Below, piece after piece: positions 22,430 to 37,688 of a stretch of DNA of 64,000 nt (positions are counted from its first letter, which is position 1; every line of letters begins with the position of its first letter). The DNA lies in assembly GCA_003598085.1 (NCBI GenBank), contig QZKU01000004.1:4211-68210 (forward strand), given 5' to 3'. The position numbers and the translations under genes are program-made. Source of the stretch: Candidatus Abyssobacteria bacterium SURF_5 (lineage in GTDB: Bacteria > Abyssobacteria > SURF-5). Under the pieces are notes generated by a model. That model saw only the letters and a program-made list of their open reading frames with translations, was not told the DNA's origin and did not search any database.

Positions 22430-25400
22430 CTAATTGATCTTTACTGGTTTGTCGAGAAAAGGCTCGAACGTTACTTTTCCCAAGGCCGGATCATCATCTG
22501 CGTCAACGATCATGCGGGAAATGGCGCCCCCATCTGAGCTACCCCAATAGCAGTTGCTTGTTGTAAACGGAGATGAATCGGCAGAGTTCCCGTTGTAGAA
22601 CTGGCTGCCGGAGTTGCCATACACGTTGTTGTTTTCGAAAACAAGATATCCGAGAACGTATACACCGCCGTTATCCTTTGCGGACCGCCCTCGATTGGCG
22701 GTCACGGTGTTCCTGGTGAAGACTTCATTTTCTATGGATGTCCCCCAGAAATTGATGAATACGCCGCCGCCGAATTGCGACAGCGCGATGTTTGAGCCGA
22801 TGTAGTTGCGCGTGATGCTGCTGTTGTGTTCCGTGAAAATGCCGCCACCTTCCCGGGCCTGATTCCGCGTCACCTCATTTTCATCGACGAGCCCGAAGGT
22901 GGAATAAATGCCGCCGCCTGCCGCTTTCGCGGTGTTTCCATCTATTCGATTGCCGATCGCCGAGGACCGGGACAGATAGACGCCGCCACCGTTGCCTGTG
23001 GCCGTATTGGCGGTGATGTCGTTGTCTTCCACATGGATCGTCGAAGTGTTCATGTATCCGTAGGCATAAATGCCGCCGCCGTCGCCGTCCGCAGTATTGT
23101 GGTGAATTTTATTCGAGAGGACATAGATGATATCGTTCGTATAGGCGTAAATGCCGCCGCCATTGGTGGGGGCCTCATTATGATGGATATCATTTCCCGC
23201 GATAACCGGGCCGCCTTGTCGAATCGTTATCCCGCTGCCGCCGTTTCCTGCTATCTCGCAATTTTTTATGAGCGGCGAGGAAGATTCGATCAACAAACCT
23301 TTGCCTCCGTCGATACTGCAGAATTCCAGAATGGTTCCGTCGATGTAGGTTCTCTGATCATCGAGAATCGCATCCGCACATTGTTCGGCAAAGATGATGC
23401 TTCCCCATCTCCCCGAAGATTCACGCGTAAACAGAATAGGAGCGTCCGCCGTTCCCCGAGCCTGAAGCTCTCCCCGCACTTTCAGATTTTTGCCAGGAGC
23501 AAAATGAACAGCCACTCCCGGTTCAATAACAAGTCTCCCTTCCGACATAATGATCGTGTTGCCGGCGACGAAATACGGGCTCTTCGCTTTTTGGAGATGC
23601 ATCTCGCTGTCTATCGGGCCGGACAAGGTGAAGGCGGTTTCGGGCGCAGTTGTAAAGCCCGTGGGCCTGCTCCAATCCGACCAACTGCCGGTGGGCGAAC
23701 GGGAGGCGATTCTCCATGCATACTCCCTGACTGCCTGAAGTTTATCACTTCCCATCGTCAGCTCATCCATTTCCGGTCCAGAGGTCATGGTATCGAGCAC
23801 TGGATTAAAGGCGCTGTCGCCGGCGGCAAAGACCTGCCACCGGTAGGAGACTACAGCTTCGCCTGCTTCGGGAGGGGCGGCTTTCAGGATTATCTTATCC
23901 CGCAGCACCCCCTGATCGCCGTCAGCCGGATGAAGGTTTACGGGCGCGAGGAGCGATTCTTCCGACGGAGAAAAATACAGCCTCACCTCTTCGGAAAGCC
24001 CCGTCTCCGCCTCGCCCTCGTCTCGAGTCGAAAATCCGGAGACACACAAGAAATATTCCTTTTCCGGTTCCAGATCGGTGATGAGAAACGACTTTTCAGA
24101 ACCTGTCTGTAAAACCGTATCATATGGATACCCGCTCTCCGAGCTGATATAGATCCTGTGGCCGGTGAAGTTTGCGCCGGGCGATTCTTCCCACGTCAAT
24201 TCGATTCCGCCGTCTCGCGAGGCCGCGCGTACGTGGAAAGGCGGCAGCATGGGCGGCTGTGGGCGCTGTTCGAGCATGAACGGCTTGTAAATGGCCAATC
24301 CATTGGATTCGTTGTCGATCCAATCATAGGTCACCCGAAGGATCGAGTCTTCGGAAGAAGTGCCCCAATAATTTTCGGTAGCGACGACATCGGGCGCATC
24401 GGACACATTGGCTATATAAAGAGCGTAGCCTTCGTTGCCCAGGATATTATTGCCGCGGATAAGCGGATTGCCTGAAACATAAATGCCGCCGCAACCTTCA
24501 TCTCCATCGGCGCTGTTTGCGGCGATACAGTTATCCTCAATGGGGCCGGAGCCGAAATAATGCAAACCCCCTCCTTCGATGCGGGCGGCCTTATTGCGAA
24601 TAATGCTGTTCGATTTGATGCTGGCATTCTCGGAGAAAATGCCGGCGCCGCGCTCCGCTGAATTTCCCTGCACAAGGTTGTCGGCCACTTCGGATTCGAC
24701 CGCATAAATTCCGCCGCCACGCAATATGGCTTTATTATTGATAACGGTGTTCCCGTTCAAAATCGCTTTGTAGGCGTAGATTCCGCCCCCGAAGCGTGAA
24801 CTGCTGTTGCCGAAGATCACATTGTTCATGATGTGCGCAGTTCCGCCGTCCGCGGCGTAAGCATAAATCCCGCCGCCGCCGTCACGACCGCCGTCGGAGA
24901 TGTTGTTGTAGATGATATTGTCGGCGATTCGGACATTCCTGTCGGAGTAACTAATGATGCCTCCTCCGTTGCCGGAAGCCGGGTCATGTTCGGTGGAATT
25001 CCCATAGATGCGGTTGCCCATGATAGTCGGTGCGCCGAATTCCACCCGAATCCCGCTGGAGACGTTATTACGGATTTCGCACTGGGTAATAAAGGGGGCG
25101 CCGAACCTGATGAAGAGGCCTCCCCCTTTTTCGACAATACAATTGCTCAGGATGCAGCCGGCTGAATAGGCGCCGGACTCGGAGAAGGCGGCATCAGTGC
25201 TGAAGTCGGTAAATGAGACGTTTCCCCAGGGCGTTTCGGTATGTGCGGTAAACAGAATAGGTTTCGCCGGCGTCCCTACAGCCCGGAGGCTTCCGTTTAT
25301 CTCGAGAGATTTCTCGGGGTAAAATTCAACAATGACGCCGGGTTCGATTTCCAGCGTTGCGCCTTCAATCAACTTGATGTCGTTCGTTATTTGGTATGGG

Positions 25401-25534
25401 CTCTTCCTGGCAAACCAGATAGTGTCCTTCTCGATATTGCGGCTGACGCTGGTCGCCGCCCAAGCCGGCGCCGACAGAAGGACCACGAAAAGAATTGCGC
25501 AAAACCGGCACTTCCACAGTTTCTGCTTTCTCAT
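22430..25534 (-). CDS. Secreted right-handed parallel beta-helix protein with fibronectin III domains
   Basis: 1034 aa. Signal peptide about 1-27 (FVVLLSAPAWAA). Two right-handed beta-helix regions of NosD/PbH1-type repeats (about 55-400 and 700-1020), rich in short units such as GNGGGIYAY and ENNVIYNN, flank two fibronectin III-like domains (about 430-660; LPPFHVRAASRDGGIELTW). Both halves begin with a similar segment (IEGATLEIEPGVIVEF and SEGRLVIEPGVAVHF), indicating an internal duplication. Such proteins are surface adhesins or polysaccharide-acting enzymes; no catalytic residues are recognised here. The gene begins 39 bases after the cytochrome c stop on the same strand, so it may be the last gene of the respiratory operon, though a functional link is not evident. 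Confidence 0.85.
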   Translation of the reverse strand: MRKQKLWKCRFCAILFVVLLSAPAWAATSVSRNIEKDTIWFARKSPYQITNDIKLIEGATLEIEPGVIVEFYPEKSLEINGSLRAVGTPAKPILFTAHTETPWGNVSFTDFSTDAAFSESGAYSAGCILSNCIVEKGGGLFIRFGAPFITQCEIRNNVSSGIRVEFGAPTIMGNRIYGNSTEHDPASGNGGGIISYSDRNVRIADNIIYNNISDGGRDGGGGIYAYAADGGTAHIMNNVIFGNSSSRFGGGIYAYKAILNGNTVINNKAILRGGGIYAVESEVADNLVQGNSAERGAGIFSENASIKSNSIIRNKAARIEGGGLHYFGSGPIEDNCIAANSADGDEGCGGIYVSGNPLIRGNNILGNEGYALYIANVSDAPDVVATENYWGTSSEDSILRVTYDWIDNESNGLAIYKPFMLEQRPQPPMLPPFHVRAASRDGGIELTWEESPGANFTGHRIYISSESGYPYDTVLQTGSEKSFLITDLEPEKEYFLCVSGFSTRDEGEAETGLSEEVRLYFSPSEESLLAPVNLHPADGDQGVLRDKIILKAAPPEAGEAVVSYRWQVFAAGDSAFNPVLDTMTSGPEMDELTMGSDKLQAVREYAWRIASRSPTGSWSDWSRPTGFTTAPETAFTLSGPIDSEMHLQKAKSPYFVAGNTIIMSEGRLVIEPGVAVHFAPGKNLKVRGELQARGTADAPILFTRESSGRWGSIIFAEQCADAILDDQRTYIDGTILEFCSIDGGKGLLIESSSPLIKNCEIAGNGGSGITIRQGGPVIAGNDIHHNEAPTNGGGIYAYTNDIIYVLSNKIHHNTADGDGGGIYAYGYMNTSTIHVEDNDITANTATGNGGGVYLSRSSAIGNRIDGNTAKAAGGGIYSTFGLVDENEVTRNQAREGGGIFTEHNSSITRNYIGSNIALSQFGGGVFINFWGTSIENEVFTRNTVTANRGRSAKDNGGVYVLGYLVFENNNVYGNSGSQFYNGNSADSSPFTTSNCYWGSSDGGAISRMIVDADDDPALGKVTFEPFLDKPVKIN

Positions 25535-25573: not shown

Positions 25574-27784
25574 CTAATAGTCCATCTGGGTCCAGTCGAT
25601 CTCTTCTTTCTGCTCCTCCTCGGCCTCCGGCGGTTTCTCCGGTATTTTGTCCATAATCATCAGGTATTTGGAGACGAGGTCGATCCACATTTCGGCGTCA
25701 GAGACCCTCTGGGCGCCTTCCGGGGTGTAGTAAACGTATGGCATTTTCGTGCCCGCACCCGCATATTTGTCCGGGTTGCGAAGGAAGTTCTTGATCCACT
25801 CGAAGCGCAGCCTCGTCTTCGAGAGCATGAGGTTAATCGAGAGGTCCTCAAGCTTGACGTCCTCCGGCAGACCTCCTTCAAGAGAGATCGGGTGGCACTG
25901 CATACACTTGTCGGCCACCACCCGATACTCGCCCATATCCCGATCGAGTTGTGGCATTTCCTCTTTCTGCGGAATCAGCACGTACGGCACGCGAGCGTCC
26001 TCAGCAGAAGAAGACTTCACCGAAAAATAATCAATCATATCTTGCACTTGTTCATACGAAAAGGAAAAAGTCGGCATCCTCATCTTCAGCCACGGCCGCA
26101 TGGGAACGGGTTTCGTCAGGTATTGAAAAGCCCATTGGGGCTGAACCTTCTCTCCTTCGCCGACGAGCCGGGGCGGCACGTACGTCTTGAGTCCGATGAA
26201 CTGATCGATGCGCGGTTTGACGTTCTCCTCAAACATATGACAGCCGCGGCAATGGTTTTCGGTGACTTCCCATTCCCCCGCCTGTCCGCGCCGCTGGGCC
26301 TCTGCGGCCGCCAGCATATATTTCTGCGGAAGCTGAAAAACCGTGTTGGAGAAATAGAAAATGGTGAGTGATTCAATTTCGCCTTCTTCAAAGTTAAACT
26401 TCGGCATTTTCAACGGCATATCGACCGTCTCGTAAATCTTCGGTTCCTTTATCTTATTGAGAATCCAGTCCCATTTGGTCGTAGGAACCTGTGAATTTCC
26501 GAACGGGAGTTCGTCGAGCGTTTTCTTCGCGACCTCGGCCACCTCGACGCCGGGAAGCGGAGATCTGTCGAAGTCCTTCATCTTGTGACAGCCGTAGCAA
26601 CCCTGAAGTTGAACCAGTTTGCCTCCGTTTTCCACTGACGCCCCGTCTGTTTTCAGCGGCTCCGAGCGCACAAGCTCGGCATTATCCTTCAGAGTCATAA
26701 GATATGCGGTGAGGTTGAGCCGGTCGCTATCGGTGATGTCGAGCTTGGGCATACGCGTGTCGGGGTTGTACGCCTTGGGATCCTTCAAATACTCGAACAC
26801 CCAGTTCCCATTCAATTTGATTCCGGCGTCCGACAGATTCGGAATGCGTCTCGTCAGCGAATCCTCCTCCCGCTTTTCGGAATGGCAGGCTTTACATCCG
26901 AGGTCGGTAAACAGGGTCTCACCCTCTTTGGCGGACGCAGGTGACAGATCAACCTTCGGATATTCCTTATCGGATTTCAAAGAGAGCGCATAGGCCGCAA
27001 TGTCGCGAATTTCGTCATCCGAAAGCGTAAAGGTCGGCATGAGAGTGCGCGGCCGCATTTTTTCGGGAGTTTTCAACCAACTCAGCATCCATCGTTCGTC
27101 CGCCAGCTTCTCCTTAAATCCGTCGAGAATTGGCGCGAATTTGGGAAGATCTTCGAATCCGCGCGCACTGTGGCAGTCGTAGCAACCATATTTTTGAAAG
27201 GCGAGTCTGCCGAGTTCAAACTGCTCGGCCCCTTCCAGTCCGTATGAAGTCTCATGGCAGCCGATGCAAGGCGCCTGAAGATATTGATGCGGGATGAGCG
27301 GATTGTACCAGGTCTCTTCATATCCATGGGCAGCGAATGCGGTTGTCCCCACGCCCTGCCCATGATGACAGACAGTACAGCCAAATTTATCCGCCTTATG
27401 CAGGTCAAGCATTTTCCCCGGATGAGCTTTAAACGGCTCGGGCGCATCGGCGAACAGGGGATTATCGATGCCGAGATGGCAGCTCGTGCAGAGATCGCGC
27501 ACATTCGCATCCGGCAGGAACACCTGGCGAAGATGCGGCCGCATGGACCGGGCCTCGCGCAACTGCTTCTCCCATTTCTCTGTCTCAGCCGAGTCCCCGG
27601 CCTGAGCGGACGCGGCTATTTGCTCAAGCAGCTTCTGCTCCGACAGCTTCTGAAATTCTCGCTGATATGCCGCCCATTCGCGCGAGTTCTCGTGCTGGAA
27701 AACGCGCACCGTCAAAACGGCAAAAACCAGAATGGCCGCTGAGAAGACCAGGCGGCTCGAAAATTTCGCCCTGATGATATTCAT
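25574..27784 (-). CDS. Octaheme membrane-anchored cytochrome c
   Basis: 736 aa. N-terminal membrane anchor at about 12-29 (VFSAAILVFAVLTVRVF). Eight CxxCH heme sites begin at residues 99, 136, 173, 201, 297, 396, 512 and 627. The first three are closely spaced. The last five each sit in a class I cytochrome c module with a following Met-Pro axial-ligand motif (for example TLMPTFTLSDDEIRDIAAY, RMPKLDITDSD, KMPKFNFEEGE, RMPTFSFSYEQ, KMPYVYYTPEG). The periplasmic part could carry electrons between the bc complex and the molybdoenzyme coded upstream. It starts 7 bases after the subunit IV gene, so it is translationally linked to it. I know no named cytochrome with this exact architecture; it is likely a fusion that replaces cytochrome c1. 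Confidence 0.9.
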   Translation of the reverse strand: MNIIRAKFSSRLVFSAAILVFAVLTVRVFQHENSREWAAYQREFQKLSEQKLLEQIAASAQAGDSAETEKWEKQLREARSMRPHLRQVFLPDANVRDLCTSCHLGIDNPLFADAPEPFKAHPGKMLDLHKADKFGCTVCHHGQGVGTTAFAAHGYEETWYNPLIPHQYLQAPCIGCHETSYGLEGAEQFELGRLAFQKYGCYDCHSARGFEDLPKFAPILDGFKEKLADERWMLSWLKTPEKMRPRTLMPTFTLSDDEIRDIAAYALSLKSDKEYPKVDLSPASAKEGETLFTDLGCKACHSEKREEDSLTRRIPNLSDAGIKLNGNWVFEYLKDPKAYNPDTRMPKLDITDSDRLNLTAYLMTLKDNAELVRSEPLKTDGASVENGGKLVQLQGCYGCHKMKDFDRSPLPGVEVAEVAKKTLDELPFGNSQVPTTKWDWILNKIKEPKIYETVDMPLKMPKFNFEEGEIESLTIFYFSNTVFQLPQKYMLAAAEAQRRGQAGEWEVTENHCRGCHMFEENVKPRIDQFIGLKTYVPPRLVGEGEKVQPQWAFQYLTKPVPMRPWLKMRMPTFSFSYEQVQDMIDYFSVKSSSAEDARVPYVLIPQKEEMPQLDRDMGEYRVVADKCMQCHPISLEGGLPEDVKLEDLSINLMLSKTRLRFEWIKNFLRNPDKYAGAGTKMPYVYYTPEGAQRVSDAEMWIDLVSKYLMIMDKIPEKPPEAEEEQKEEIDWTQMDY

Positions 27785-27791
27785 TTCTTCT

Positions 27792-28514
27792 TCAGATATT
27801 GAACCATGGCGTGGTCACAATGTACCTGATATTGAAGGCGAGGCGCAAAAGTATCTTGATCGGTACGCCGTACATCAAGAGCACAAGCGTGAAAGCGATG
27901 AGGTATCTCACCGCTCCCATGCGGCGGAAGATGCCCTTCATAAGGACTGCCGGCAGCGCCAGCCCAATTGTTATATACGTTGCAAGAAAGGCGATGCCGG
28001 CCCACTGAGGCATATTGACCAGCGTCTCTTCCGCGCTTTTTGCGACCGACCAATCCTCCCACAGCCAATAAAACTGCCAGTTGGGTCCGCGCAGGAACTG
28101 GCCGATCAGGATCAGGACGAACCACATCCCAAACCCGAACACATAGGTGATTATGGCCGCTCGGCGTTCGGAAAATGAGTACTTGCCGATTGCCGTCGTG
28201 CTGACGTCAATATAAGGAATGAGGACGAGCCCGAGGATAATGAGAGTGGGAATGACAACTCCGGCGATCCACGGATCGAAGTATACGAGTAATTCCTGCA
28301 ACCCGACAAAGTACCAGGGAGCTTTCGCCGGATTTTCAGTCTTGTTCGGGTCCGCAATGCTGAGGAGAGGAGCGTTCTGCAGCATCGACCATACGAGCAG
28401 AATGACTGAAGCGATGATGGCGGCGATAAATTCCTTCATCACCAGATGAGGAATCACGAACTCAAACTCATCTTGCGCCACTTCAGCAGAACCGGCTTTG
28501 ACAGAGAGGTCCAT
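27792..28514 (-). CDS. Cytochrome b C-terminal part (subunit IV-like) of a bc complex
   Basis: 240 aa starting at ATG 28514 (MDLSVKAG) behind GATGAGGAT. A much longer in-frame extension into the upstream gene exists but has no protein character. The segment APWYFVGLQELLVYFDPW corresponds to the Qo-site region; the usual PEWY reads APWY, so the glutamate is missing. Five or six membrane helices follow, more than the three of plastid subunit IV, so it probably includes extra C-terminal helices as in some bacterial menaquinol:cytochrome c reductases. It lies 11 bases after the cytochrome b6-like gene and just before the octaheme cytochrome. It completes the quinol-oxidising cytochrome b in the membrane. 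Confidence 0.87.
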   Translation of the reverse strand: MDLSVKAGSAEVAQDEFEFVIPHLVMKEFIAAIIASVILLVWSMLQNAPLLSIADPNKTENPAKAPWYFVGLQELLVYFDPWIAGVVIPTLIILGLVLIPYIDVSTTAIGKYSFSERRAAIITYVFGFGMWFVLILIGQFLRGPNWQFYWLWEDWSVAKSAEETLVNMPQWAGIAFLATYITIGLALPAVLMKGIFRRMGAVRYLIAFTLVLLMYGVPIKILLRLAFNIRYIVTTPWFNI

Positions 28515-28525
28515 AGAATCCTCAT

Positions 28526-29293
28526 CTAGAGCGGGTGTGAAATCCCTCCGTCTTTCCTCACCCGCCAGAAGTGAACGAACATCAATACCACTGCCGCCAG
28601 CGGCAGCAGGATGCAATGCAGCACGTAGAACCGCAGAAGAGCGTTTTCTCCTACCATCGTGTCTCCGAGCAGCAAGTACTTCACGTCGTTCTCGGGTCCG
28701 ATACCGAGCAATTGGTGGAAGGGTCCTTCGGAGCCCAGCAGAGGAGTAGCCCCGGCCATTCTCGTGCCGACGGTGATCGCCCAGAACGAGAGTTGGTCCC
28801 ACGGGAGGAGATAACCGGTAAAACTGAGCAGAAGCGTCAACACCAGGAGGAAAACGCCGACCACCCAGTTGAATTCCCGCGGCGGACGATACGAGCCGGT
28901 GAGGAAGACCCTCAGCATATGCATCATCACCAGGATGACCATGGCGTGGGCCGCCCACCGGTGCAGATTGCGCATGACGAGGCCGAACTTCACCACGTGT
29001 TCGAGCAAGCGCATGTCGAGATACGCATATTCGACCGTCGGGCGATAATAGAACATGAGAAGCACGCCGGTGATCGTCTCCACCAAAAACATGAAGAACG
29101 TCAGGCCCCCGAGGCAAAAGGTGTGCCTGATTTTCAGGCCTATCCTTCTCACTTTCGGCGGATGCACATGAAGGAAAAAGTTGGAGACGACCGTCAGCAC
29201 CCGGTTGCGGGGAGTATCAGAAAATCGGTGCCTGAAGACCGAGCGCCATATTTGGCTCTCGGTGATCTTTTTGGATATGCTTCCCATATGCAT
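28526..29293 (-). CDS. Cytochrome b N-terminal part (b6-type) of a bc complex
   Basis: 255 aa with four hydrophobic helices. Heme ligand pairs are His111/His125 (RNLHRWAAH...MMHMLRVF, 14 apart) and His226/His241 (YVLHCILL...FVHFWRV, 15 apart). The 15-residue spacing of the second pair is the b6f/Gram-positive pattern; bc1-type cytochrome b has 14. The [14 protein letters not shown] segment is typical of the family. The start is either ATG 29293 or ATG 29287; neither has a clear Shine-Dalgarno sequence because a 90-bp inverted-repeat element ends 4 bases upstream. Acts in the membrane, oxidising quinol and passing electrons to the Rieske protein and cytochrome c. Confidence 0.93.
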
Positions 29294-29296
29294 TAC

Positions 29297-29386
29297 GGGG
29301 CCAGACCTTGACGCATGACATAAGCGGATTCGCCGAGAAAATTCAGTCTAAAGGAAGGCTTATGTCATCTGCCAAAGCCTGACCCC
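29297..29386. mobile_element. MITE-like 90-bp inverted-repeat element
   Basis: Two 29-bp arms (29297-29325 and 29358-29386) are inverted repeats with 23 of 29 matching positions. The outer end is GGGGYCAG and the inner end ATGACATAAGC. There is no gene inside the 32-base centre. It sits between the TorD gene and the cytochrome b gene, directly before the latter's start codon. Its size, arms and lack of coding fit a miniature transposable element; no transposase gene is in the window. Confidence 0.65.
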
Positions 29387-29392
29387 CTCACT

Positions 29393-30106
29393 TCAATTCC
29401 GGTCTGGATGCAACCGCTGGAGATGCTGCAAATCTCCGGCGCATACGTTAGCGGCCAAGCCGATAACGCCGCAATAAAAGGAGACCGCCGCCTCGCACAG
29501 GTTCGGCACCTTGCGCGACGCCAAAACCTTCTCGGCTTTCCGATGAAGCTCCGGCAACCATCTGGCCGGGTGGCGCTTGAGGAAATCGATTTCGGCGAAC
29601 ACGTAAGGCGTGATGTCCTCGTTTCTCTGCAACGCTATGACTTCTTTAAATGTCAGGTAATGCATGAACTCGAGTTGGGTTGTCACATGGTCCGGGAGTT
29701 CGCGTTCCGGCGCTTCAGCGACGCTGAGACCGAAGTTGTTGTAGAAGCGTACCAGTTCCTCCATATTGCCCATTCTGTTGCCGGCATATTTCCCTTCATA
29801 GAGAGGGCAGGGAGGTCCTCCCGGGCCTGCGTCAAAAACGCGAACGAATTCGGCTTCGAAATCCTCCTGTGACACGTTTTTCAGCAGTTGGCCGGAAAGC
29901 GCCCCTTCCTCCACAGCCACTTCGTACGGGAGATCATGCAGAAGCGCAAGTACATACTTCAGATACTCGCCGTCCTTCACCATCTTCAGAAATTCCGTTT
30001 CGGGGTACCGAAACGATTCGGCGAGGAATCGGTACATCTGGCTTCTGCGCGCGCGTTCCGTCTGCTCGACGCCCTTGATGTTATCGAGTTCGACGATAGG
30101 CTTCAT
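29393..30106 (-). CDS. TorD/NarJ-family molybdoenzyme assembly chaperone
   Basis: 237-aa all-helical protein with no signal peptide. The middle carries the family hallmark: EFVRVFDAGPGGPPCPLYEGKY, split here as EFVRVFDAGP and CPLYEGKY. TorD-like proteins bind the twin-arginine leader and apo form of a molybdoenzyme until cofactor insertion is complete. It follows the beta subunit gene by 22 bases and is surely dedicated to the alpha subunit at 32-35 kb, which has a Tat leader. Ribosome-binding site AAAGGG. Confidence 0.9.
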   Translation of the reverse strand: MKPIVELDNIKGVEQTERARRSQMYRFLAESFRYPETEFLKMVKDGEYLKYVLALLHDLPYEVAVEEGALSGQLLKNVSQEDFEAEFVRVFDAGPGGPPCPLYEGKYAGNRMGNMEELVRFYNNFGLSVAEAPERELPDHVTTQLEFMHYLTFKEVIALQRNEDITPYVFAEIDFLKRHPARWLPELHRKAEKVLASRKVPNLCEAAVSFYCGVIGLAANVCAGDLQHLQRLHPDRN

Positions 30107-30128
30107 GCTACCCTTTCAGCAAAAATGC

Positions 30129-31262
30129 TTATGTGTACATCGAATTCATCGGGTCCTTGTTGAACGGCCCGAACATCTTTTCCCACCGCTTCGCGATCAG
30201 GATTTCCATCAGTTCCGATTTCTCTCCATCCCGCGTTCTCTGCATTTCCTGCTGAAGCAGCTTCAGCGACTGCTCGACTTCCGGGCCGAACAGGTCCACC
30301 AGATATCGCAGCGGGATGCGCGGCTTTGAGGTATCGATTTTGCCCGTATCGTCGAGCCGGGGCGGAGCAAGCGGCGGCACATAATACACGTTCGGTTCGG
30401 TCCCGAACTTCGGGAACAGCGGCAGGGCCACTTTCCACTTCTTCACGAGCTGGTATATCGGTCCCTGTTCATTATCGAGATAATCGACAAAACGAACGCG
30501 TCCGGTGCATTGGCGCACGCACGCATTGGCCACGCCCTTCTCGATGCGCGGGTAGCAGAAGATGCATTTTTGACTGGTCAACTTCTCAAAGTTGAAGTAA
30601 ATCTTCTTATACGGGCACGCCTCCAGGCAGAAGCGGTATCCCTTGCAGCGATCCTGGTCGATAAGCACGATCCCGTCCTCTTCGCGCTTATAAATTGCGT
30701 GGCGGGGGCAGGCGTCGATGCACGGCGGATATGTGCAGTGGTTGCAGATTCTGGGAAGATAGAAGAAGAAGCTGTTGGGATAGTTGATGCCGACAGCGCC
30801 CTGATCTTCGTCCCAGTTCATTGACCATTCTGGAGTAGTGCCATCGCTGTTCTTGGCGGACAGCGTCACTTGCCCCCATTTGGTATTCAGGATCTCGTCG
30901 TGATTGAAGGTCCACAGGTCTCCGAATTCCTTTCGAGTAGGCAGTTTGCCGCGGATAGGCTCGCGCACGCGCCCCTCGAAAAGCACTTTGTAGCCGCCGC
31001 CGCTCTTCTCGAAATCCTTCGGTGTTCCTTTGCCGGGCATGGTATTGACGGTGTTCCACCACATGTACTCCCGGCCTTCTTTTTTCGTCCACGTGTTCTT
31101 GCACGCCATGCTGCAGAGCTGACAGCCGATGCACTTGTTGAGGTCCATCACCATGGCGAGCTGGCGCTTGGTGCGGCGCAATTCATCCTTGATCGCCAGA
31201 AATTCCTTCGAAAGTTCCTCTTGTCGCTGCTTATCTTCCTGTGTCGGTTCCAGTACTGCCAT
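30129..31262 (-). CDS. Iron-sulfur beta subunit of a type II DMSO reductase-family molybdoenzyme
   Basis: 377 aa, no signal peptide, so presumably exported by hitch-hiking on the alpha subunit. Four cluster motifs: C44-x2-C47-x2-C50-x3-C54; C173-x2-C176-x4-C181-x3-C185; C206-x5-C212-x3-C216, where the expected second cysteine is Tyr209, implying a [3Fe-4S] cluster as in NarH; and C233-x2-C236-x11-C248-x3-C252. So three [4Fe-4S] and one [3Fe-4S] cluster, the set known for EbdB, DdhB, SerB and ClrB. It relays electrons between the Mo centre and the heme b subunit. The start has GAGGAGA before the ATG. Confidence 0.93.
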   Translation of the reverse strand: MAVLEPTQEDKQRQEELSKEFLAIKDELRRTKRQLAMVMDLNKCIGCQLCSMACKNTWTKKEGREYMWWNTVNTMPGKGTPKDFEKSGGGYKVLFEGRVREPIRGKLPTRKEFGDLWTFNHDEILNTKWGQVTLSAKNSDGTTPEWSMNWDEDQGAVGINYPNSFFFYLPRICNHCTYPPCIDACPRHAIYKREEDGIVLIDQDRCKGYRFCLEACPYKKIYFNFEKLTSQKCIFCYPRIEKGVANACVRQCTGRVRFVDYLDNEQGPIYQLVKKWKVALPLFPKFGTEPNVYYVPPLAPPRLDDTGKIDTSKPRIPLRYLVDLFGPEVEQSLKLLQQEMQRTRDGEKSELMEILIAKRWEKMFGPFNKDPMNSMYT

Positions 31263-31304
31263 GTTTATTCTCCTCTATCTGAAGGATTGAAGCCAAATCA
31301 TCCA

Positions 31305-31985
31305 TTATGCAAGCTGAATATCCCGCCATTCCTTTGAGAAGGCTTTTACGCCGCCTCGCTCGCCGGCCGCTCCTTCCCAGGCGGCGACACCAATCTGTTT
31401 TTTCATTCCGGCGGCCAGTTTGATTGAGTCCTCGGGAACCGTGAAAGCACGGCTCATGACGACCGTCCATTCGCCGTTCTTCCAGCCGGAATTCGCCATA
31501 ATGGAACTTTTTTCGGTGTACAGACTGGTGGAAAGACCTTGAGCAATCTGATTCTTCGGCTTATTATCGAAGTCGGCGCGCCAGTACCAGGAATTGGTGG
31601 GAGCGTCTTTGGTTCCCATTTCTTTGATCGGCGTCTCAATGTCGTCGCGCATTGGGAAGAGGAGCGAAACTCCGTCGGGAAACGTATCCAGATCGCCGAT
31701 TTGGAGGTTCTGGTTTTCGCTTTTCCAGTTCAAACGGAAGAATATCTCTTTCCCGTTATGGAGGGTTTTAAGCCTTACTTGCGGTATTTTCCCGATGTCC
31801 TTTTCATCGCGCGTCGCCTTGATATAAGGAGACGGCTGGTTTGCGAGCGGAGTGGCCGCCGTTTCCAAAACATATTCGTTCGCGCTTTTCCATACAGGCG
31901 AATCCAGCTTGAGCAATTCATCTTTGGTGGCCGTCACCTTCGCCGCCACGATCTTATCAGCAGTTGTCGTCGCATTTTCAGCCAT
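31305..31985 (-). CDS. Heme b gamma subunit of a type II DMSO reductase-family molybdoenzyme
   Basis: 226-aa protein of the ethylbenzene dehydrogenase gamma / EB_dh heme-binding family. Met112 in SLLFPMRDD is the probable axial ligand matching the EbdC methionine; a lysine near the C-terminus (VKAFSKEWRD) may be the other. In EbdC and DdhC this subunit has a Sec signal peptide, but here the N-terminus (MAENATTTADK) is polar and the start is well supported by AAGGGGG upstream. It may therefore be exported with alpha-beta by the Tat system. It lies 31 bases after the alpha gene. It would carry electrons to or from a periplasmic cytochrome. Confidence 0.85.
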   Translation of the reverse strand: MAENATTTADKIVAAKVTATKDELLKLDSPVWKSANEYVLETAATPLANQPSPYIKATRDEKDIGKIPQVRLKTLHNGKEIFFRLNWKSENQNLQIGDLDTFPDGVSLLFPMRDDIETPIKEMGTKDAPTNSWYWRADFDNKPKNQIAQGLSTSLYTEKSSIMANSGWKNGEWTVVMSRAFTVPEDSIKLAAGMKKQIGVAAWEGAAGERGGVKAFSKEWRDIQLA

Positions 31986-32016
31986 AATGTGTGTCCCCCT
32001 TCGTTACATGCCGCTC

Positions 32017-34926
32017 CTATGCCTTTTGAACCTCAACCGTCACCGCCCGGTCAACAGGTTGAGTACACCAATTCCACCGGTAGTAGTTGAGGTGACCGTA
32101 TCCAGCCGCCAAGTCCAGCCATTTTATCATACCGGGTATGGCCGCGTCATAACTCTTCCACTTCTCGAACTGGTACGGCTCCCAGGCATGGTAAATGATC
32201 ACCTGCCCCGGCTGCAAATCGTTTTGCGAGCGAGCAGCCGAAGTGACCTTGACATGGACCTTGAAATCATCGAAATCATTGAAAACGCGAACCAGGTCGC
32301 CGTCCTCAATCCCCCGTTTTTTGGCGTCCTCGGTGTTCATGAACATGAATGGTCGCCCCTGATGGGTGCGAGCGAGCACATCGTCGGTAATCCAGATCGA
32401 GTGAACGCTCCACCGCTGGTGGCCGCTGGTCATGCGCAGCGGGTAGTTGCCGCCCATATTCGGGTTGTCCTTGTGGACCGGGAGCTGTTCTCCTGCCTCG
32501 ATGAACCAGTCGTGATCGATATAGAAGGTGATCCTCCGGTTGTAGGTCGGATACGGTATCTTTTTTGGCCCGGTATGATATGTAAGCGGCACGATCGGCT
32601 CGTCCGGCTTAATATCGGTCATGAGGTGCATCGCGATGACGTCGAGCTTCGAGACGCTCGTGAAGCGAACGATGCCGTCCTTGCGGAGGGACTGAAGGTT
32701 TGTGCCTTCGGGCAGAGTACCGAGCGTCGCGCTCAGTTGAAGCGCATCATCGAGCGTTTCGTCGGCGGAATTTCTCTGCAGCGTCTGCCGTTCCACAAGC
32801 TTTGTCATGTCGAGCGTGGTGCCGGTTCGGGTCTTAAACTCTTTGATTCCCCGTTTTCCACAGATTTCCTGCACCTTGACGGCCAGGAGGCGGCCGACCT
32901 CCCATTCCTCTTTCCCCTCGCCGAATGGTTTCACCGCCCGTTCCGTCAGCGTGAGCCAGGGGACGTGGGGGGTCGGGAATCGCGTGTCGGTTTTCTCATA
33001 GAATCCGGCGCCGGGCAAGATCATATCGCTCATGAGAGCGGTCGTGCTCCAGCGTGTCTCGACGGCAAATATAAACTTGTACTGTTTCCACAAACTTGGG
33101 TAGATATTGGTCAGCCAGCCGCGGTTTTTCCGCGCCGGGCTGGTCCCCTGATAGCAGTAAACAAGCGGTTTCTGATCTTTTGCCGGTCTGATTAACCCGT
33201 CCCACCAGCCTTTCGCGACCGCCTCGTTGAAGTACTCGGCGAAGCTGCGTTTCATCGTGGGGCAGTGCCAGTCCTTCCGGTCCCAAGTATCCTTATAGCC
33301 GGAATGGTAGTAGTAAAGGAAAACCGGCGGGACCATTCCGAGGCGCTCTCGGTCCGCCGTTCGCTCCATTTCGCGCTGGATCATCTCGTCAGTCAACGAC
33401 GGATCCTTCGCCTTCAGCATGAATTTATCCACCCGCGACTCGCCGAACTGCCACAGAGAACTAAGCCCTCTCCGTTCGCGGATCATGAGAGCGGTCGCGC
33501 CGTCAAAGAGCGATTCGCTCCAGCCGCGGATGCCGCTCCCCTTGTTGCCGATGCTGCCCGTCAGCGCCAGCAGCAGGCACATGGCGCGCTCCATCAGATC
33601 GCCATGATAATACTTGGAAGAATTCCAGCCCACCAGCACCTGCACGTGGCCGCGTGCTCTCCACGCTTTTTCCGCGAGGCCGCGGATGGTATCGGCATTG
33701 ACGCCGGTCATTTTCGAGACCTGCTCCGGCTTGTAATCTCTCTCCAATTCTTCTTTGAGGAGATCGAAGACCGGCCGCACTTCCACCTTCTGCCCGTTAT
33801 TGAGAGTGACGGTATACCGGCCTTCAAGAGCGGGATCGCATGGGAGCGCAAGCGTCTCGCGCGGCGCCTTCACCGGCGCATTCGTCTTGGTATCCCAGAA
33901 ATACATCTGGTCTTCCCAACCGCTGCCGGTCATGTCGGTTTCGCGGAGAAACTTTTTGGTGTCCGACCTGACAAGCATTCCGAGGTCCGTTTGCTCCTTG
34001 ATGAATGCCTTGTCGTATTTACCCTGAGAAATAAGCTGCTGCGCAAGAGCCAGTCCCAGAGCCGCATCGGCGCCAAACTCGATAGGAATCCATTCGTCGG
34101 CATGTACGGCCGATGGCGAATAGTCGGGAGCTATGGTGATCACTTCCGAGCCGTTGTAGCGGGCCTCGGAAATGAAGTGGTACGAGGGAATGCGCGTGTA
34201 CACCGGGTTCATATGCCAGATCAGCAGCAGTTTCCCGAAAAACCAGCCGTCAACAGAGTCGCAGAACTGGAATTTGCCGAACGTTTCGTACACGCCTTTA
34301 TTGAAGTCGCCGATAGTCGAGTTCAGGTCGAGTTCCGTTGCCCCGAGACCGCTGAAAAAGCGGAACATCGTGATCAGATGAATCCAGCCTCCGTTGCCAG
34401 GACCCGGCTCGTACACGATGGATTCGGTTCCATTGGCCTGAATGGCGTCAACCAACTGGGTGGCCACCTCGTTGATCGCCTCATCCCATGATATCCGCTT
34501 CCACTTTCCCTCGCCCCGTTCGCCAACTCGCTTCATGGGGTACTTGACGCGGTCGGGATTGTACATCATATTGCTGTAAGAACAGCCTTTCTGGCAGCCG
34601 CGCGGGTTCCAATCAGGACCGGTCGCATCAACAACGGGATATTTTCCCGCTTGTTCTTCGCGCCACACGATCCCGTCTTTGGTGTATACGCGCCACAGGC
34701 AATTGCCGGGATAACAATCCACCAGGTGTGTTCCGTAAGTCACCTTGTCCCATTTCCACTCATCACGATGCAGCTTTTCCCAGCCGCTGTACTTCCATTC
34801 TTGAAACACCTTCTCCGTCGCGTGCGCGGTTCCTCCCAGGAAGCCGAGTGAATCGAGCGAGAGCGCCAGCGCGGTCGTGCCGGTTATCTGCAGAAAACGG
34901 CGCCTCGTGAACCTGAAGTCCGACAT
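32017..34926 (-). CDS. Molybdopterin catalytic alpha subunit, type II DMSO reductase family
   Basis: 969 aa from ATG 34926, chosen because AAGGAGG lies 5 bases before it. Twin-arginine leader FTRRRFLQITGTTALALS, cleaved after about GGTAHA, so periplasmic. The first iron-sulfur motif is His67-x3-Cys71-x4-Cys76-x34-Cys111, with His as one ligand as in NarG and EbdA. Asp207 (STIGDFNKG) is the likely molybdenum ligand, a mark of type II enzymes. Known relatives hydroxylate hydrocarbons (ethylbenzene, p-cymene, steroid side chains), oxidise dimethyl sulfide, or reduce selenate, chlorate or nitrate. The substrate is not readable. The partner genes (beta, gamma, TorD) follow; a Zn-alcohol dehydrogenase precedes, which supports the hydroxylation model. 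Confidence 0.92.
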   Translation of the reverse strand: MSDFRFTRRRFLQITGTTALALSLDSLGFLGGTAHATEKVFQEWKYSGWEKLHRDEWKWDKVTYGTHLVDCYPGNCLWRVYTKDGIVWREEQAGKYPVVDATGPDWNPRGCQKGCSYSNMMYNPDRVKYPMKRVGERGEGKWKRISWDEAINEVATQLVDAIQANGTESIVYEPGPGNGGWIHLITMFRFFSGLGATELDLNSTIGDFNKGVYETFGKFQFCDSVDGWFFGKLLLIWHMNPVYTRIPSYHFISEARYNGSEVITIAPDYSPSAVHADEWIPIEFGADAALGLALAQQLISQGKYDKAFIKEQTDLGMLVRSDTKKFLRETDMTGSGWEDQMYFWDTKTNAPVKAPRETLALPCDPALEGRYTVTLNNGQKVEVRPVFDLLKEELERDYKPEQVSKMTGVNADTIRGLAEKAWRARGHVQVLVGWNSSKYYHGDLMERAMCLLLALTGSIGNKGSGIRGWSESLFDGATALMIRERRGLSSLWQFGESRVDKFMLKAKDPSLTDEMIQREMERTADRERLGMVPPVFLYYYHSGYKDTWDRKDWHCPTMKRSFAEYFNEAVAKGWWDGLIRPAKDQKPLVYCYQGTSPARKNRGWLTNIYPSLWKQYKFIFAVETRWSTTALMSDMILPGAGFYEKTDTRFPTPHVPWLTLTERAVKPFGEGKEEWEVGRLLAVKVQEICGKRGIKEFKTRTGTTLDMTKLVERQTLQRNSADETLDDALQLSATLGTLPEGTNLQSLRKDGIVRFTSVSKLDVIAMHLMTDIKPDEPIVPLTYHTGPKKIPYPTYNRRITFYIDHDWFIEAGEQLPVHKDNPNMGGNYPLRMTSGHQRWSVHSIWITDDVLARTHQGRPFMFMNTEDAKKRGIEDGDLVRVFNDFDDFKVHVKVTSAARSQNDLQPGQVIIYHAWEPYQFEKWKSYDAAIPGMIKWLDLAAGYGHLNYYRWNWCTQPVDRAVTVEVQKA

Positions 34927-34976
34927 AAGAACCTCCTTACCCAATGCTTCGGCCGCATCCCCGGGCGACCAACCGA

Positions 34977-36053
34977 TCAAGGCGTCAAGGCAATCTTGAT
35001 CACATCATCCGAACGTTTCTGGAACATCTCGTAACCCTTGACTCCCTCCTCCAATGACATCCTGTGTGTAATCAGGGGGGTCGCGTCCAGCAGGCCTGCT
35101 TCTATTAGCCTGAGGAGCCGGTCCATGTGAACCACATTGACAAGCCCCATGCTGACCCCGATGTTCTTGATCGAGAGCTGCGGCATCATGAGTTCCTGCG
35201 GATCCTCGAAAATGCCGATGATCGACACGTTGCCGCCGGGTCTGACAGCCTGGAAACAGGCGTCAAAGGTCGATTTTATCCCCACGGCTTCGATTACAAC
35301 ATCGGCGCCGCATCGGCTTTTCACCTGCTCCAGGATATCACGCGGGGCGCCTCCCGTTAGTTCCTGTATCTCATGAATAACATCCTTTTTGCCCGGGTCG
35401 ATTGTATGCGTGGCTCCAAGGGCTCTGGCCACTTTGAGACGGCCGGGAATGGGGTCGACCGCGATCAATTTTGCGGGGCTGAATAAAGTCGCGCATGCAA
35501 TCGCGCAGAGGCCTACCGGCCCGGCTCCGAAGACAACGACGCTGTCGCCCGGACAGATTTTCCCGTTAATGACGCCGAAATATCCGGTCGAAAGGATGTC
35601 TCCCACCAGCAACACTTGCTCGTCCGACAGCGAAGGTGGAATCTTGTGCATCCCAAGTTGGGCGTAAGGCACGCGAATATACTCGGCTTGCGCTCCGTCG
35701 AAGTTTCCAAGGAAAGGACCACAGCCAAAAACGCCTCCTTTTTTGCATTTGGCCGCCAGCCCTTTTTGGCACATCTCGCACTTGCCGCACTGCACTGTGC
35801 ACGCGACCGCCACGCGGTCACCGGGGGCAAATCCGTCAATGCCCTCGCCGCATTCTTCCACCACACCCACAAATTCGTGGCCGAGGATAGTGCCCGGCAT
35901 CATCGGAGCGGCGCCGTGAATCATGTGAATGTCGCTCCCGCATATGCTGGACAGAGTTACTTTTACAATGGCGTCATCGGGATGCTCGATTGAGGGTTTT
36001 TCGACATCTGCGACGGCGACTTGATTGATTTCTTCAAAGATGATCGCCTTCAT
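34977..36053 (-). CDS. Zinc-dependent medium-chain alcohol dehydrogenase
   Basis: 358-aa MDR enzyme. Catalytic zinc ligands Cys38 (SICGSDIH) and His59-Glu60 (LGHEFVG); structural zinc Cys89, 92, 95 and 103. Rossmann motif GAGPVGLCAIA near 175 with Asp in AVDPIP indicating NAD preference. It most resembles the threonine/secondary-alcohol dehydrogenase branch. A segment near 245 (GGAPRDILEQVKSRCGADV) is longer than in common members. Its start overlaps the ferredoxin stop by 4 bases (ATGA), so translation is coupled. Inside a molybdoenzyme operon it could oxidise the alcohol made by the molybdoenzyme to a ketone or aldehyde. Confidence 0.9.
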   Translation of the reverse strand: MKAIIFEEINQVAVADVEKPSIEHPDDAIVKVTLSSICGSDIHMIHGAAPMMPGTILGHEFVGVVEECGEGIDGFAPGDRVAVACTVQCGKCEMCQKGLAAKCKKGGVFGCGPFLGNFDGAQAEYIRVPYAQLGMHKIPPSLSDEQVLLVGDILSTGYFGVINGKICPGDSVVVFGAGPVGLCAIACATLFSPAKLIAVDPIPGRLKVARALGATHTIDPGKKDVIHEIQELTGGAPRDILEQVKSRCGADVVIEAVGIKSTFDACFQAVRPGGNVSIIGIFEDPQELMMPQLSIKNIGVSMGLVNVVHMDRLLRLIEAGLLDATPLITHRMSLEEGVKGYEMFQKRSDDVIKIALTP

Positions 36054-36343
36054 GGCTCTCCGTCACTCAAAGGAACCATAGTGATGGCATTCCATGGACA
36101 TCCTTCAATATAGGCGCCGAGAGGTCCGCGCGTGACACAGTTGCGGCATCCGATGCATTTTTCCGGGTTGACCCGCATCCTTTTGAAGAGGAAGCTGCTG
36201 TCATCATCCACAAGTTCGAGAGCTCCGTCGGTCGGACAGAACATGGCGCAAACGGGAGAGCCCGCACATCCCGTGCACAAATCACCGATACAAGCAACCT
36301 GACGTCTCCGCGCCACGACCGGTCGTCCTCCGGCAACAATCAT
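36050..36343 (-). CDS. Two-cluster ferredoxin-like protein
   Basis: 97-aa protein with two cysteine sets: C23-x2-C26-x5-C32-x3-C36-P and C63-x2-C66-x2-C69-x12-C82-P, which probably hold two [4Fe-4S] clusters. The spacing resembles the electron-transfer subunits found in bc-linked and molybdoenzyme operons. No signal peptide. Its start codon overlaps the stop of the Rieske gene (ATGA) and its stop overlaps the start of the alcohol dehydrogenase gene, so the three are translationally coupled. It may accept electrons from the alcohol dehydrogenase side or serve assembly; role unknown. Confidence 0.85.
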   Translation of the reverse strand: MIVAGGRPVVARRRQVACIGDLCTGCAGSPVCAMFCPTDGALELVDDDSSFLFKRMRVNPEKCIGCRNCVTRGPLGAYIEGCPWNAITMVPLSDGEP

Positions 36344-36906
36344 ACCTTAATGAATACTTCCTGCTTTTCAAATTCTTCAATTGTGAAAATCTGACTCGTG
36401 TCGACAACGAGATTGCCGCGGGTATTCTGAGAAATTTTCAGCCGGTCGAGCGGACGAGGAGCGGGTCCGGCGAAATTGACGCCGTTTGAATAAAACTGGC
36501 TTCCATGGCAGGGACATTTGTAGATGCCGAGACCGGGAAACCAGTTGACCGTACATCCCAGATGCGTGCAGCGCGCAAAGAGCGCATAGATGCGTGAGGC
36601 CTCGCGAATAACAAAAAACCGTTGCTCCGTCTTCCACCGCGGTTCCACGAAAACGACGCCGTACGCGTCGGGATCGGCGCCTGACGAAAAATTATCTATA
36701 GTGCCGATTTCAAATATGCTCGGGGGATGGAATACTACGGTGGGAGAAAAGAAACGAACGGTCTGGATGGCGCCCGCACCGGAAAGAGCAAAAAGCGAGC
36801 CCCAACCGATAACCGAAAGGCTCTTGTGCAAGAGTTCGCGCCTGCTGAGCCCTTCTGACATCGCTCTCACTTTATCACCAGCAGTTGAGCCGGCTTCCAT
36901 AACCAC
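36340..36906 (-). CDS. Rieske [2Fe-2S] protein of a bc complex
   Basis: 188 aa. Twin-arginine-like start SRRELLHKSLSVIGWGSLF followed by a membrane anchor; the Rieske fold is Tat-exported. Cluster motifs CTHLGC (Cys113, His115) and CPCHGS (Cys131, His134), with Cys118 and Cys133 for the disulfide typical of bc-type, high-potential Rieske proteins. The start is GTG 36906 or ATG 36900, both behind AAGGAG; a later ATG at 36861 is also possible. It transfers electrons from quinol at the Qo site to cytochrome c. It is unusual for the Rieske gene to be separated from cytochrome b by molybdoenzyme genes. Confidence 0.92.
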   Translation of the reverse strand: MVMEAGSTAGDKVRAMSEGLSRRELLHKSLSVIGWGSLFALSGAGAIQTVRFFSPTVVFHPPSIFEIGTIDNFSSGADPDAYGVVFVEPRWKTEQRFFVIREASRIYALFARCTHLGCTVNWFPGLGIYKCPCHGSQFYSNGVNFAGPAPRPLDRLKISQNTRGNLVVDTSQIFTIEEFEKQEVFIKV

Positions 36907-36941
36907 TCATCTCCTTGACGGCCAAAGCGCGAGTCTAAGCT

Positions 36942-37688
36942 CTATAGCTGTCGTTGAGGGTCGAGCTCGCGGCCGATTTTTAAAATCATCCGTTTGCGAA
37001 GCAAGCCGATTAGGGTGTTGAGCAGATTGATGCCGTTCTCCGCCATATTCACCATCTCATCGGGAGACATCCTGCCGGTTACCGTTTTCGAAAAGAACCG
37101 CACTTCCTGCCGCGCGAGAACCTCGATCAGGTCGACATATATCTTGATGAACTCGGAATTGAATCCCGCTTCCTCCGTGTAACCGGCATCGCGTAGCTTC
37201 CTCAGAATCTCGATAATCCTTACCGAATCCTCGTCAAAGCGGCCATCCAATTTGCGCCAGATGATGCCCACCCGCTCCATCTCCAGCACCTCTTCCTTCG
37301 AGACACCCGTCAGCTCACACAGAGCTTTCAGGTCGGGTGGATCAAACTTTGGCAGGGTGGAGATATTCTTGAAAAGCCTTCCCTCGAGTTCCAGAATCGT
37401 CTTGATTTCCTGAGTGTCCATCGAGCTTTCGCCTTGCTCGAGAATTTGCTTGATGATGCTCAGGGGGAAGTAACGCTTCTCTTGCAGCTCACGAATCAAT
37501 CGGATACGCTGCACATAGCTCTGGTCGTAGTAGGCCATGTTGCGATGCGTCTTGAGCGGCCTCGGAAGGAGGCCTTCGTTGATATAATACCGAATGGTGC
37601 CGGGCGGTACGCCGGTAAGTCTGGAGAGCTCGTGCATCTTGAGGAGCTTCTGCTTGTGGGCTGGCTTATTTTTTGTGATCGGGGTCAT
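36942..37688 (-). CDS. MerR-family transcriptional regulator
   Basis: 248 aa. N-terminal winged helix (HELSRLTGVPPGTIRYYINEG, split as HELSRLTGVPPG and TIRYYINEG) at about 18-85 and a long helical C-terminal part that lacks the metal-binding cysteines of MerR/CueR types. This fits an organic-ligand sensor. The C-terminal half (about 100-240) is unlike common MerR proteins. It is the first gene of the respiratory operon, 35 bases ahead of the Rieske gene, and palindromes in its own leader are likely operators. So it probably controls the whole operon. Confidence 0.88.
   Translation of the reverse strand: MTPITKNKPAHKQKLLKMHELSRLTGVPPGTIRYYINEGLLPRPLKTHRNMAYYDQSYVQRIRLIRELQEKRYFPLSIIKQILEQGESSMDTQEIKTILELEGRLFKNISTLPKFDPPDLKALCELTGVSKEEVLEMERVGIIWRKLDGRFDEDSVRIIEILRKLRDAGYTEEAGFNSEFIKIYVDLIEVLARQEVRFFSKTVTGRMSPDEMVNMAENGINLLNTLIGLLRKRMILKIGRELDPQRQL

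Follow-up and report, generated by a model that had tools for sequence, protein, structure and literature searches.

The closest described relative of the locus analyzed here, known from the literature (PMC3653055, PMC7803848), is ahyABC of Desulfococcus oleovorans Hxd3 (Desulfosudis), a sulfate reducer that degrades oil. The ahyABC product, a putative alkane C2-methylene hydroxylase, has been tied to growth on alkanes by proteomics (PMC3653055), and the hydroxylase function is itself a proposal. Two further systems are related in composition, namely ethylbenzene dehydrogenase (EbDH, EbdABCD) of Aromatoleum aromaticum, which hands its electrons over to c-type cytochromes at a potential of +256 mV (PMC8840923), and the steroid C25 dehydrogenases (S25DH) of Sterolibacterium, in which several alpha subunits share fewer beta and gamma subunits (PMC6016249). 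In the open literature, we found no relevant paper linking Rieske or bc genes with ahy, and subscription reviews (e.g., Heider 2016) may describe such a link; likewise, no paper on Poribacteria and ethylbenzene dehydrogenase was found. A question for a sulfate reducer like Hxd3 is how it could use the electrons of about +250 mV that come from EbDH-type enzymes, a potential far above those of menaquinone and sulfate.

The window, a stretch of 64,000 nucleotides from contig QZKU01000004.1 of Candidatus Abyssobacteria bacterium SURF_5, contains a locus of this kind in a candidate phylum known from groundwater. Judged from its sequence, the operon type is known in outline from Hxd3; new are a Poribacteria-like host from a little-known candidate phylum, an alcohol dehydrogenase (ADH) within the operon, and three further alpha subunits that share one gamma subunit. 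With this locus, the range of the Ahy system comes to include a candidate phylum, and the operon ADH would couple hydroxylation with the next step of the pathway.

Gene content and conservation of the locus

The array comprises eleven minus-strand genes (25574-37688; Table 1), all of them intact and without internal stops, with intergenic gaps of -4 to 99 bp. Profile and PDB matches agree with the gene identities of the initial annotation, whose outer coordinates were exact. Within the array, subunit IV had to be corrected to the bounds in Table 1, and the alpha subunit most likely starts at ATG 34926 rather than at TTG 34980, and has the Tat motif RRRFLQ. A conserved twelfth gene, which encodes a beta-helix protein and adds to the eleven-gene set, had been missed.

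Table 1. Genes of the locus, listed in the direction of transcription (positions in the window).
Product	Position	Strand	Remarks
MerR-family regulator	36942..37688	-	First in array; NCBIfam MerR-type matches
Rieske [2Fe-2S] subunit	36340..36906	-	PF00355; RR-type N-terminus; CTHLGC...CPCHGS
Small 2x[4Fe-4S] ferredoxin-like protein	36050..36343	-	PF12838; always adjoins Rieske
Zn-dependent medium-chain alcohol dehydrogenase	34977..36053	-	PF08240/PF00107
AhyA-type molybdenum alpha subunit, Tat signal (MSDFRFTRRRFLQ)	32017..34926	-	TIGR03479, EbdA 2ivf
Heme-b gamma subunit (EB_dh)	31305..31985	-	PF09459 E=2e-28; PDB 2ivf_C E=3e-32
FeS beta subunit	30129..31262	-	TIGR03478
TorD/NarJ-type maturation chaperone	29393..30106	-	TIGR03482, PF02613
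Cytochrome b6-like subunit	28526..29293	-	PF00033; PDB 6rqf_I E=2e-46
Subunit IV-like protein	27792..28514	-	Weak PF00032 E=3e-4; ExtQ 1e-13
Octaheme cytochrome c, N-terminal hydrophobic anchor	25574..27784	-	Exactly 8 CxxCH
Secreted right-handed beta-helix protein, fn3 mid-protein	22430..25534	-	PF13229

A genome search found the order Rieske, ferredoxin, alpha, gamma, beta, TorD, cytochrome b6, subunit IV, octaheme cytochrome, and beta-helix in about ten Desulfobacterota-type genomes, with the Hxd3 chromosome among the genomes that have it. The gene order is thus not unprecedented; the claim that no operon with all these parts had been described holds only for the ADH, whereas the remaining parts, except the directly adjacent MerR gene, occur in the same order in Hxd3, for which ahyABC is published. 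The Hxd3 locus has divergent MerR genes nearby, none of them directly adjacent, and adjoins MoaA-, FmdE-like, and ModE-like/ABC-transporter genes. A MerR homologue precedes the Rieske gene in L018 (61% identity), a locus of a Poribacteria MAG, and in L019 (40%).

The ADH, whose nearest solved structures are the ADHs 4cpd and 5yln and in whose sequence no export signal was found, has a counterpart with 72% identity in the Poribacteria MAG (L018/L069). Unlike in the window, there is no ADH gene between ferredoxin and alpha in Hxd3 or the other Desulfobacterota loci, and the insertion is specific to the host family of the window. In all Ahy loci with a long enough contig, including Hxd3, the octaheme gene is directly followed by a beta-helix homologue, often a lipoprotein-like one.

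The alpha subunit belongs to the AhyA clade

The alpha subunit scored 898 bits against TIGR03479, and its best solved relative is EbdA (2ivf, E=8e-227). In the phylogenetic tree, it was placed inside a 16-row clade with the Desulfococcus AhyA L016, with a clade support of 100/100. The Hxd3 chromosome was recognized by both published ahyA primers and by the identity of 84.69% between the L016 alpha and the Hxd3 alpha (published value, 84.7%). In the active site, Asp223 and Lys450 are present and His192 is replaced by Pro, which is the reported ahyA signature (PMC7803848), and gamma, beta, and chaperone genes are part of the same operon. Based on the identity of 64% to Hxd3 AhyA, the 100/100 grouping, and the Asp223/Lys450/Pro192 signature, the locus is assigned by sequence to the AhyABC-type hydroxylases and not to the selenate/chlorate-type reductases. 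The tree and the active-site comparison, both suggested in the initial annotation, support the first of its two models, in which a hydrocarbon would be hydroxylated with water and the ADH would take over the alcohol.

With EbdABCD, the locus shares the alpha-beta-gamma-chaperone composition, Asp223/Lys450, and a heme-b gamma subunit, but alpha identity is only 40%, His192 and Trp87 of EbdA correspond to Pro and Tyr, and no bc module has been reported with ebd in the literature examined. The alpha subunit is also distinguished from EbdA by its score of 801 bits against the NCBIfam EbdA equivalog, below the cut-off of 2000 bits, together with the Pro at position 192.

Four alpha subunits and one gamma subunit

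The beta subunit scored 495.6 bits against TIGR03478 (cut-off 480.7) and is 67% identical to its Hxd3 counterpart. The gamma subunit shares a Met (MG) and a Lys (ER.G.K) with all Ahy gammas and with EbdC. Three more alpha subunits with 77-80% identity are encoded elsewhere in the host genome, and as the gamma subunit of the window is the only close gamma copy in this genome, four alphas face one gamma; Hxd3 has one alpha of the Ahy clade. The three extra alphas probably swap with the alpha of the window on the single beta-gamma pair, which would broaden the substrate range. In subunit counts, this resembles the steroid C25 dehydrogenases. Near the paralogous alpha genes are genes for GDSL lipase, acyl-CoA ligase, and thiolase.

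Ahy loci consistently include a bc module

The bc module of Rieske, ferredoxin, cytochrome b, and subunit IV was present in all 13 Ahy-clade loci that included beta/gamma and enough flanking sequence. The flanks examined at five loci from the outlying clade of hydroxylases (L020, L022, L023, L025, L027) contained none of these genes.

The Rieske cluster motif (CTHLGC/CPCHGS) is invariant across 8 loci, and the cysteines of the ferredoxin are conserved in 8 loci; identities to Hxd3 are 57% and 53%, respectively. The cytochrome b6-like subunit is 77% identical to that of Hxd3, has cytochrome b6 as its best PDB match, and contains a conserved FCLGG Cys that aligns with Cys35 of cytochrome b6, the heme cn site. 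In subunit IV, the Qo motif PEWY is replaced by (A)PWY within KAPWYFVGLQE; WYFVGLQ is invariant in 11 loci, and KAPWY is the form in the window and in almost every relative, with KAAWY in L021. The Rieske motif, the split cytochrome b6 with its heme ligands and Cys35, and subunit IV, the latter recognized by a weak profile match and its conserved position, characterize a b6f-type complex. The subunit IV profile had no match in the PDB at E 0.01. The octaheme cytochrome has its 8 CxxCH motifs at conserved positions and 47% identity to Hxd3; it had no match among PDB sequences, and its predicted structure (mean pLDDT 49) was set aside.

Proposed mechanism and direction of electron flow

The initial annotation rightly took the bc complex as a feature that needs explaining but saw in it an argument for a reductase or a hybrid system. 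As a constant part of Ahy loci, the complex is most plausibly an exit for electrons and not their supply. We consider it probable that the locus codes for a molybdenum hydroxylase of the AhyABC type with a private electron exit, including reverse flow through the bc complex in the sulfate-reducing relatives and possibly also here. In the periplasm, the Tat-exported alpha-beta-gamma enzyme would use water to hydroxylate an alkyl chain, with a secondary carbon of an n-alkane as the most likely target, and the alcohol would enter the cell and be oxidized to the ketone by the Zn-ADH of the operon. The two electrons would pass from molybdenum via the FeS clusters and the gamma heme b to the octaheme cytochrome and on to the Rieske/b6-type complex, which would return them uphill to menaquinone, with the proton-motive force driving this reduction by otherwise too positive electrons. 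The bc module would thereby offer a concrete and testable answer to the question of electron use in sulfate reducers like Hxd3, along with marker genes.

More tentatively, we suggest that alkane hydroxylation by Ahy is an energy-consuming first step, for which a dedicated hydroxylase-octaheme-b6-type assembly with a Glu-less Qo motif runs backwards into menaquinone. This module would be common to sulfate reducers and the candidate phylum, with one beta-gamma core for four interchangeable alphas and the ADH built into the operon.

The same enzyme family and electron route could serve another substrate, such as an alkylbenzene, an isoprenoid, a sterol side chain, or another biogenic lipid. Sequence cannot reveal the substrate, and the four alphas at 77-80% recall the steroid dehydrogenase paralogues (PMC6016249), as the lipase, ligase, and thiolase genes near the paralogues would also fit; however, the His192 to Pro exchange and the clade match Hxd3, the sole lineage with alkane evidence, and we regard such a substrate as somewhat unlikely.

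With respect to direction, dsrA was above the cut-off in eight relatives, and neither heme-copper oxidase nor NarG was above the cut-off in five sulfate-type genomes (G001, G002, G005, G083, which is Hxd3, and G123), in a search that covered these two sinks. In these genomes, the quinone pool is therefore the only apparent outlet for a high-potential cytochrome. The host has NarG/NarGH, an NXR-like enzyme accompanied by a separate bc module, and no dsrA above the cut-off, so that its electrons could go to nitrate or nitrite and the direction may differ. The complex could then run forward from menaquinol to the octaheme cytochrome, with the hydroxylase feeding the same cytochrome and a periplasmic nitrate/nitrite-linked enzyme draining the shared high-potential pool, in line with the second Rieske/cytochrome b/multiheme module next to the NXR-like alpha and with the proposed use of N-oxides by an Ahy-bearing candidate-phylum MAG (PMC7803848). 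As forward flow leaves the module unexplained in those dsrA-type genomes, Hxd3 among them, in which neither heme-copper oxidase nor NarG was above the cut-off, we judge it unlikely.

Among the three reductases compared, alpha identities were 34% for ClrA, 37% for PcrA, and 26% for NarG, and position 450, a Lys in the window alpha, is His in PcrA and NarG, with ClrA also aligning with Lys. Among plasmid records, no named Ahy or S25DH was found, and the best named relatives were chlorate reductases at about 32%. The best trees grouped the Ahy clade with the hydroxylases, but AU tests did not reject joining it with the reductases (p 0.08 and 0.17); as these tests against a reductase origin were not significant, we make no claim on the deep rooting of the clade. 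A terminal reductase of the selenate, chlorate, perchlorate, or nitrate type that is fed by the bc complex via the octaheme cytochrome, the second model of the initial annotation, would agree with the type II DMSO reductase family of the alpha, the AU result, and the bc module beside the NXR-like enzyme, but is highly improbable given the much closer match to AhyA, the retained Lys450, the operon order shared with the alkane degrader Hxd3, close relatives in sulfate reducers, and, in contrast to clr, no chlorite dismutase among the annotated neighbors.

The host genome also has an NXR-like locus (G000:C42, L034), which resembles the window locus in that a type II molybdenum enzyme lies beside Rieske, cytochrome b, subunit IV, and multiheme cytochrome genes. 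It differs in its alpha, which matches NxrA 7b04 (E=3e-283) and is 26% identical to the window alpha, and the cytochromes b of the two loci share 52% identity.

Gene array and family placement of the molybdoenzyme

The eleven genes of the array (see table) are all open reading frames without internal stops, separated by gaps of -4 to 99 bp, and the names given to them in the initial annotation agree with our family scans. The top solved relative of alpha is the ethylbenzene dehydrogenase (EbDH) alpha subunit 2ivf (E=8e-227, over the full length), with perchlorate reductase 4ydd far behind and matching in pieces (2e-142). Gamma matches 2ivf_C, cytochrome b matches cytochrome b6 6rqf (2e-46) with its FCLGG cysteine aligned to Cys35 of b6, and the octaheme cytochrome has eight CxxCH motifs. 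The beta-helix gene belongs to the conserved gene set, and the operon is real, intact, and conserved.

Features of the locus and of two further molybdoenzyme loci in the host genome (G000)
Feature	Position	Strand	Description
Array	25574-37688	-	MerR, Rieske, ferredoxin, Zn-ADH, alpha, gamma, beta, TorD, cytochrome b, subunit IV, octaheme cytochrome
Alpha start	34926	-	most likely start, with predicted Tat signal
Twelfth gene	22430-25534	-	secreted beta-helix protein, 39 bp downstream of array
L034	G000:C42:78000-93000		NXR-like alpha, matching 7b04 NxrA over its full length, together with beta, gamma, 9-heme cytochrome, cytochrome b, subunit IV, Rieske
L035 (G000:C85)	281-3781	-	single ORF as assembled, 1166 aa

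Alpha is 64% identical to AhyA of strain Hxd3, 40% to EbdA, 37% to PcrA, and 34% to ClrA, and it has Asp223, Lys450, and a proline in place of His192, the residues by which AhyA is marked (PMC7803848). In the tree, it forms one clade with its three paralogues and the four alphas of the MAG JACRIR01 (100/100); the Desulfobacterota AhyA clade (100/99; the two combined 100/100) is the sister group. Forcing Ahy together with the reductases was not rejected (p 0.08 and 0.17), and the deep order of these groups is not firm. The assignment to the Ahy family is based on the near clade, the residues, and the operon; the deep root plays no part in it.

Relatives and the Hxd3 locus

In a scan of named genomes, the closest relatives were found in JACRIR01, a 'Candidatus Poribacteria' groundwater MAG whose operon (L018, L069) is the same as that of the window, MerR and ADH included, followed by Desulfobacterota MAGs. 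A close alpha occurs in 10 of 389 sampled genomes of the Desulfosudis order, among them Hxd3 (G083). Both published ahyA primers match the Hxd3 alpha with the published spacing, and its identity to the alpha of Desulfococcus MAG 4484_241 (84.69%) equals the 84.7% published for the two known AhyA sequences (PMC7803848), which identifies L062/L067 as the Hxd3 ahy locus. Its order (Rieske, ferredoxin, alpha, gamma, beta, TorD, cytochrome b, subunit IV, octaheme, beta-helix) is that of the window, except that the ADH and a directly adjacent MerR are extras of the latter. The window locus is a variant of this ahy system, and its host lineage is new. Next to the Hxd3 locus, N-terminal sequences and homologous genes in the Desulfococcus locus L016 indicate MoaA-, FmdE-, and MerR-like genes at one end and ModE-like and ABC-transporter genes at the other.

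The ADH, encoded between ferredoxin and alpha, has no visible export signal and probably performs the second step in the cytoplasm. Within the lineage's phylum, two of the three genomes in the collection have the alpha. The host genome has four alphas and one close gamma, which resembles the steroid dehydrogenases, where several alphas have beta-gamma in common (PMC6016249). Of its three stand-alone paralogues (L030/L031 on C41, L032 on C113), two form a tandem pair separated by an Atg22/MFS-like transporter gene; genes for acyl-CoA ligase, thiolase, and acyl-CoA dehydrogenase lie nearby. A Desulfobacterota genome (G123) has a stand-alone AhyA-clade alpha (L064, C6) besides its full locus L063, and alpha multiplication is therefore not limited to the Poribacteria-like lineage.

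The bc module and a proposed route of electrons

All 13 Ahy-clade loci with beta, gamma, and enough flank (window, L012 to L019, L021, L028, L062, L063; L069 and L018 cover one and the same site) contain Rieske, ferredoxin, cytochrome b, and subunit IV. L021 differs in having Rieske and ferredoxin behind TorD rather than in front of alpha. The octaheme gene comes next in 12 of the 13, the exception being L019, where the contig ends. The cofactor motifs are invariant and intact, and nearly all loci read KAPWY at the Qo motif, with proline for the usual glutamate of PEWY. Five loci of an outlying hydroxylase clade with alphas and beta/gamma showed no bc genes in the stretches examined, some of them short; L024, with an alpha at about 52%, carries bc genes upstream. 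No description of this module together with ahy was found in the open-access literature, to which the search was confined.

EbDH releases electrons at +256 mV to c-type cytochromes, with a substrate couple of about +30 mV (PMC8840923). For the alkane/2-alkanol couple, we estimate a potential near 0 mV from formation energies. The potential of menaquinone is about -70 mV. The known route for such an uphill transfer, established for iron oxidisers, is a Rieske/cytochrome b complex running in reverse on the proton-motive force.

Eight relatives had dsrA over the cut-off; this search covered genomes other than Hxd3 and G123, whose sulfate reduction is taken from literature and kinship. Neither haem-copper oxidase nor NarG exceeded its cut-off in five sulfate-type genomes, Hxd3 included. 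The tested outlying-clade hosts (G011 to G013) have oxidases, and dsrA was not over the cut-off. In a sulfate reducer without a high-potential acceptor, hydroxylase electrons would have to climb to menaquinone, and the complex of the Ahy loci, running in reverse on the proton-motive force, could drive this climb. From the constancy of the bc module, together with the potentials and the lack of an evident high-potential acceptor, we infer, as the main new point, that electrons would climb via the reversed complex, a testable bioenergetic proposal.

The window's host genome encodes NarGH as well as an NXR-like enzyme that has a bc module to itself (L034), the second such combination with a molybdoenzyme in this genome. 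In this nitrate-equipped host, electrons may flow the opposite way. The same genome, which has no haem-copper oxidase and in which dsrA did not exceed its cut-off, also encodes a Qrc-like menaquinone reductase molybdopterin subunit (L039, C86; QrcB over the cut-off) with multiheme cytochromes. Finally, L035 is an unusual putative fusion, possibly linked to cofactor sulfuration, in which a DMSO-reductase/formate-dehydrogenase-like molybdoenzyme part (residues 38-710, approximately) is followed by a NifS-type cysteine desulfurase (782-1158).
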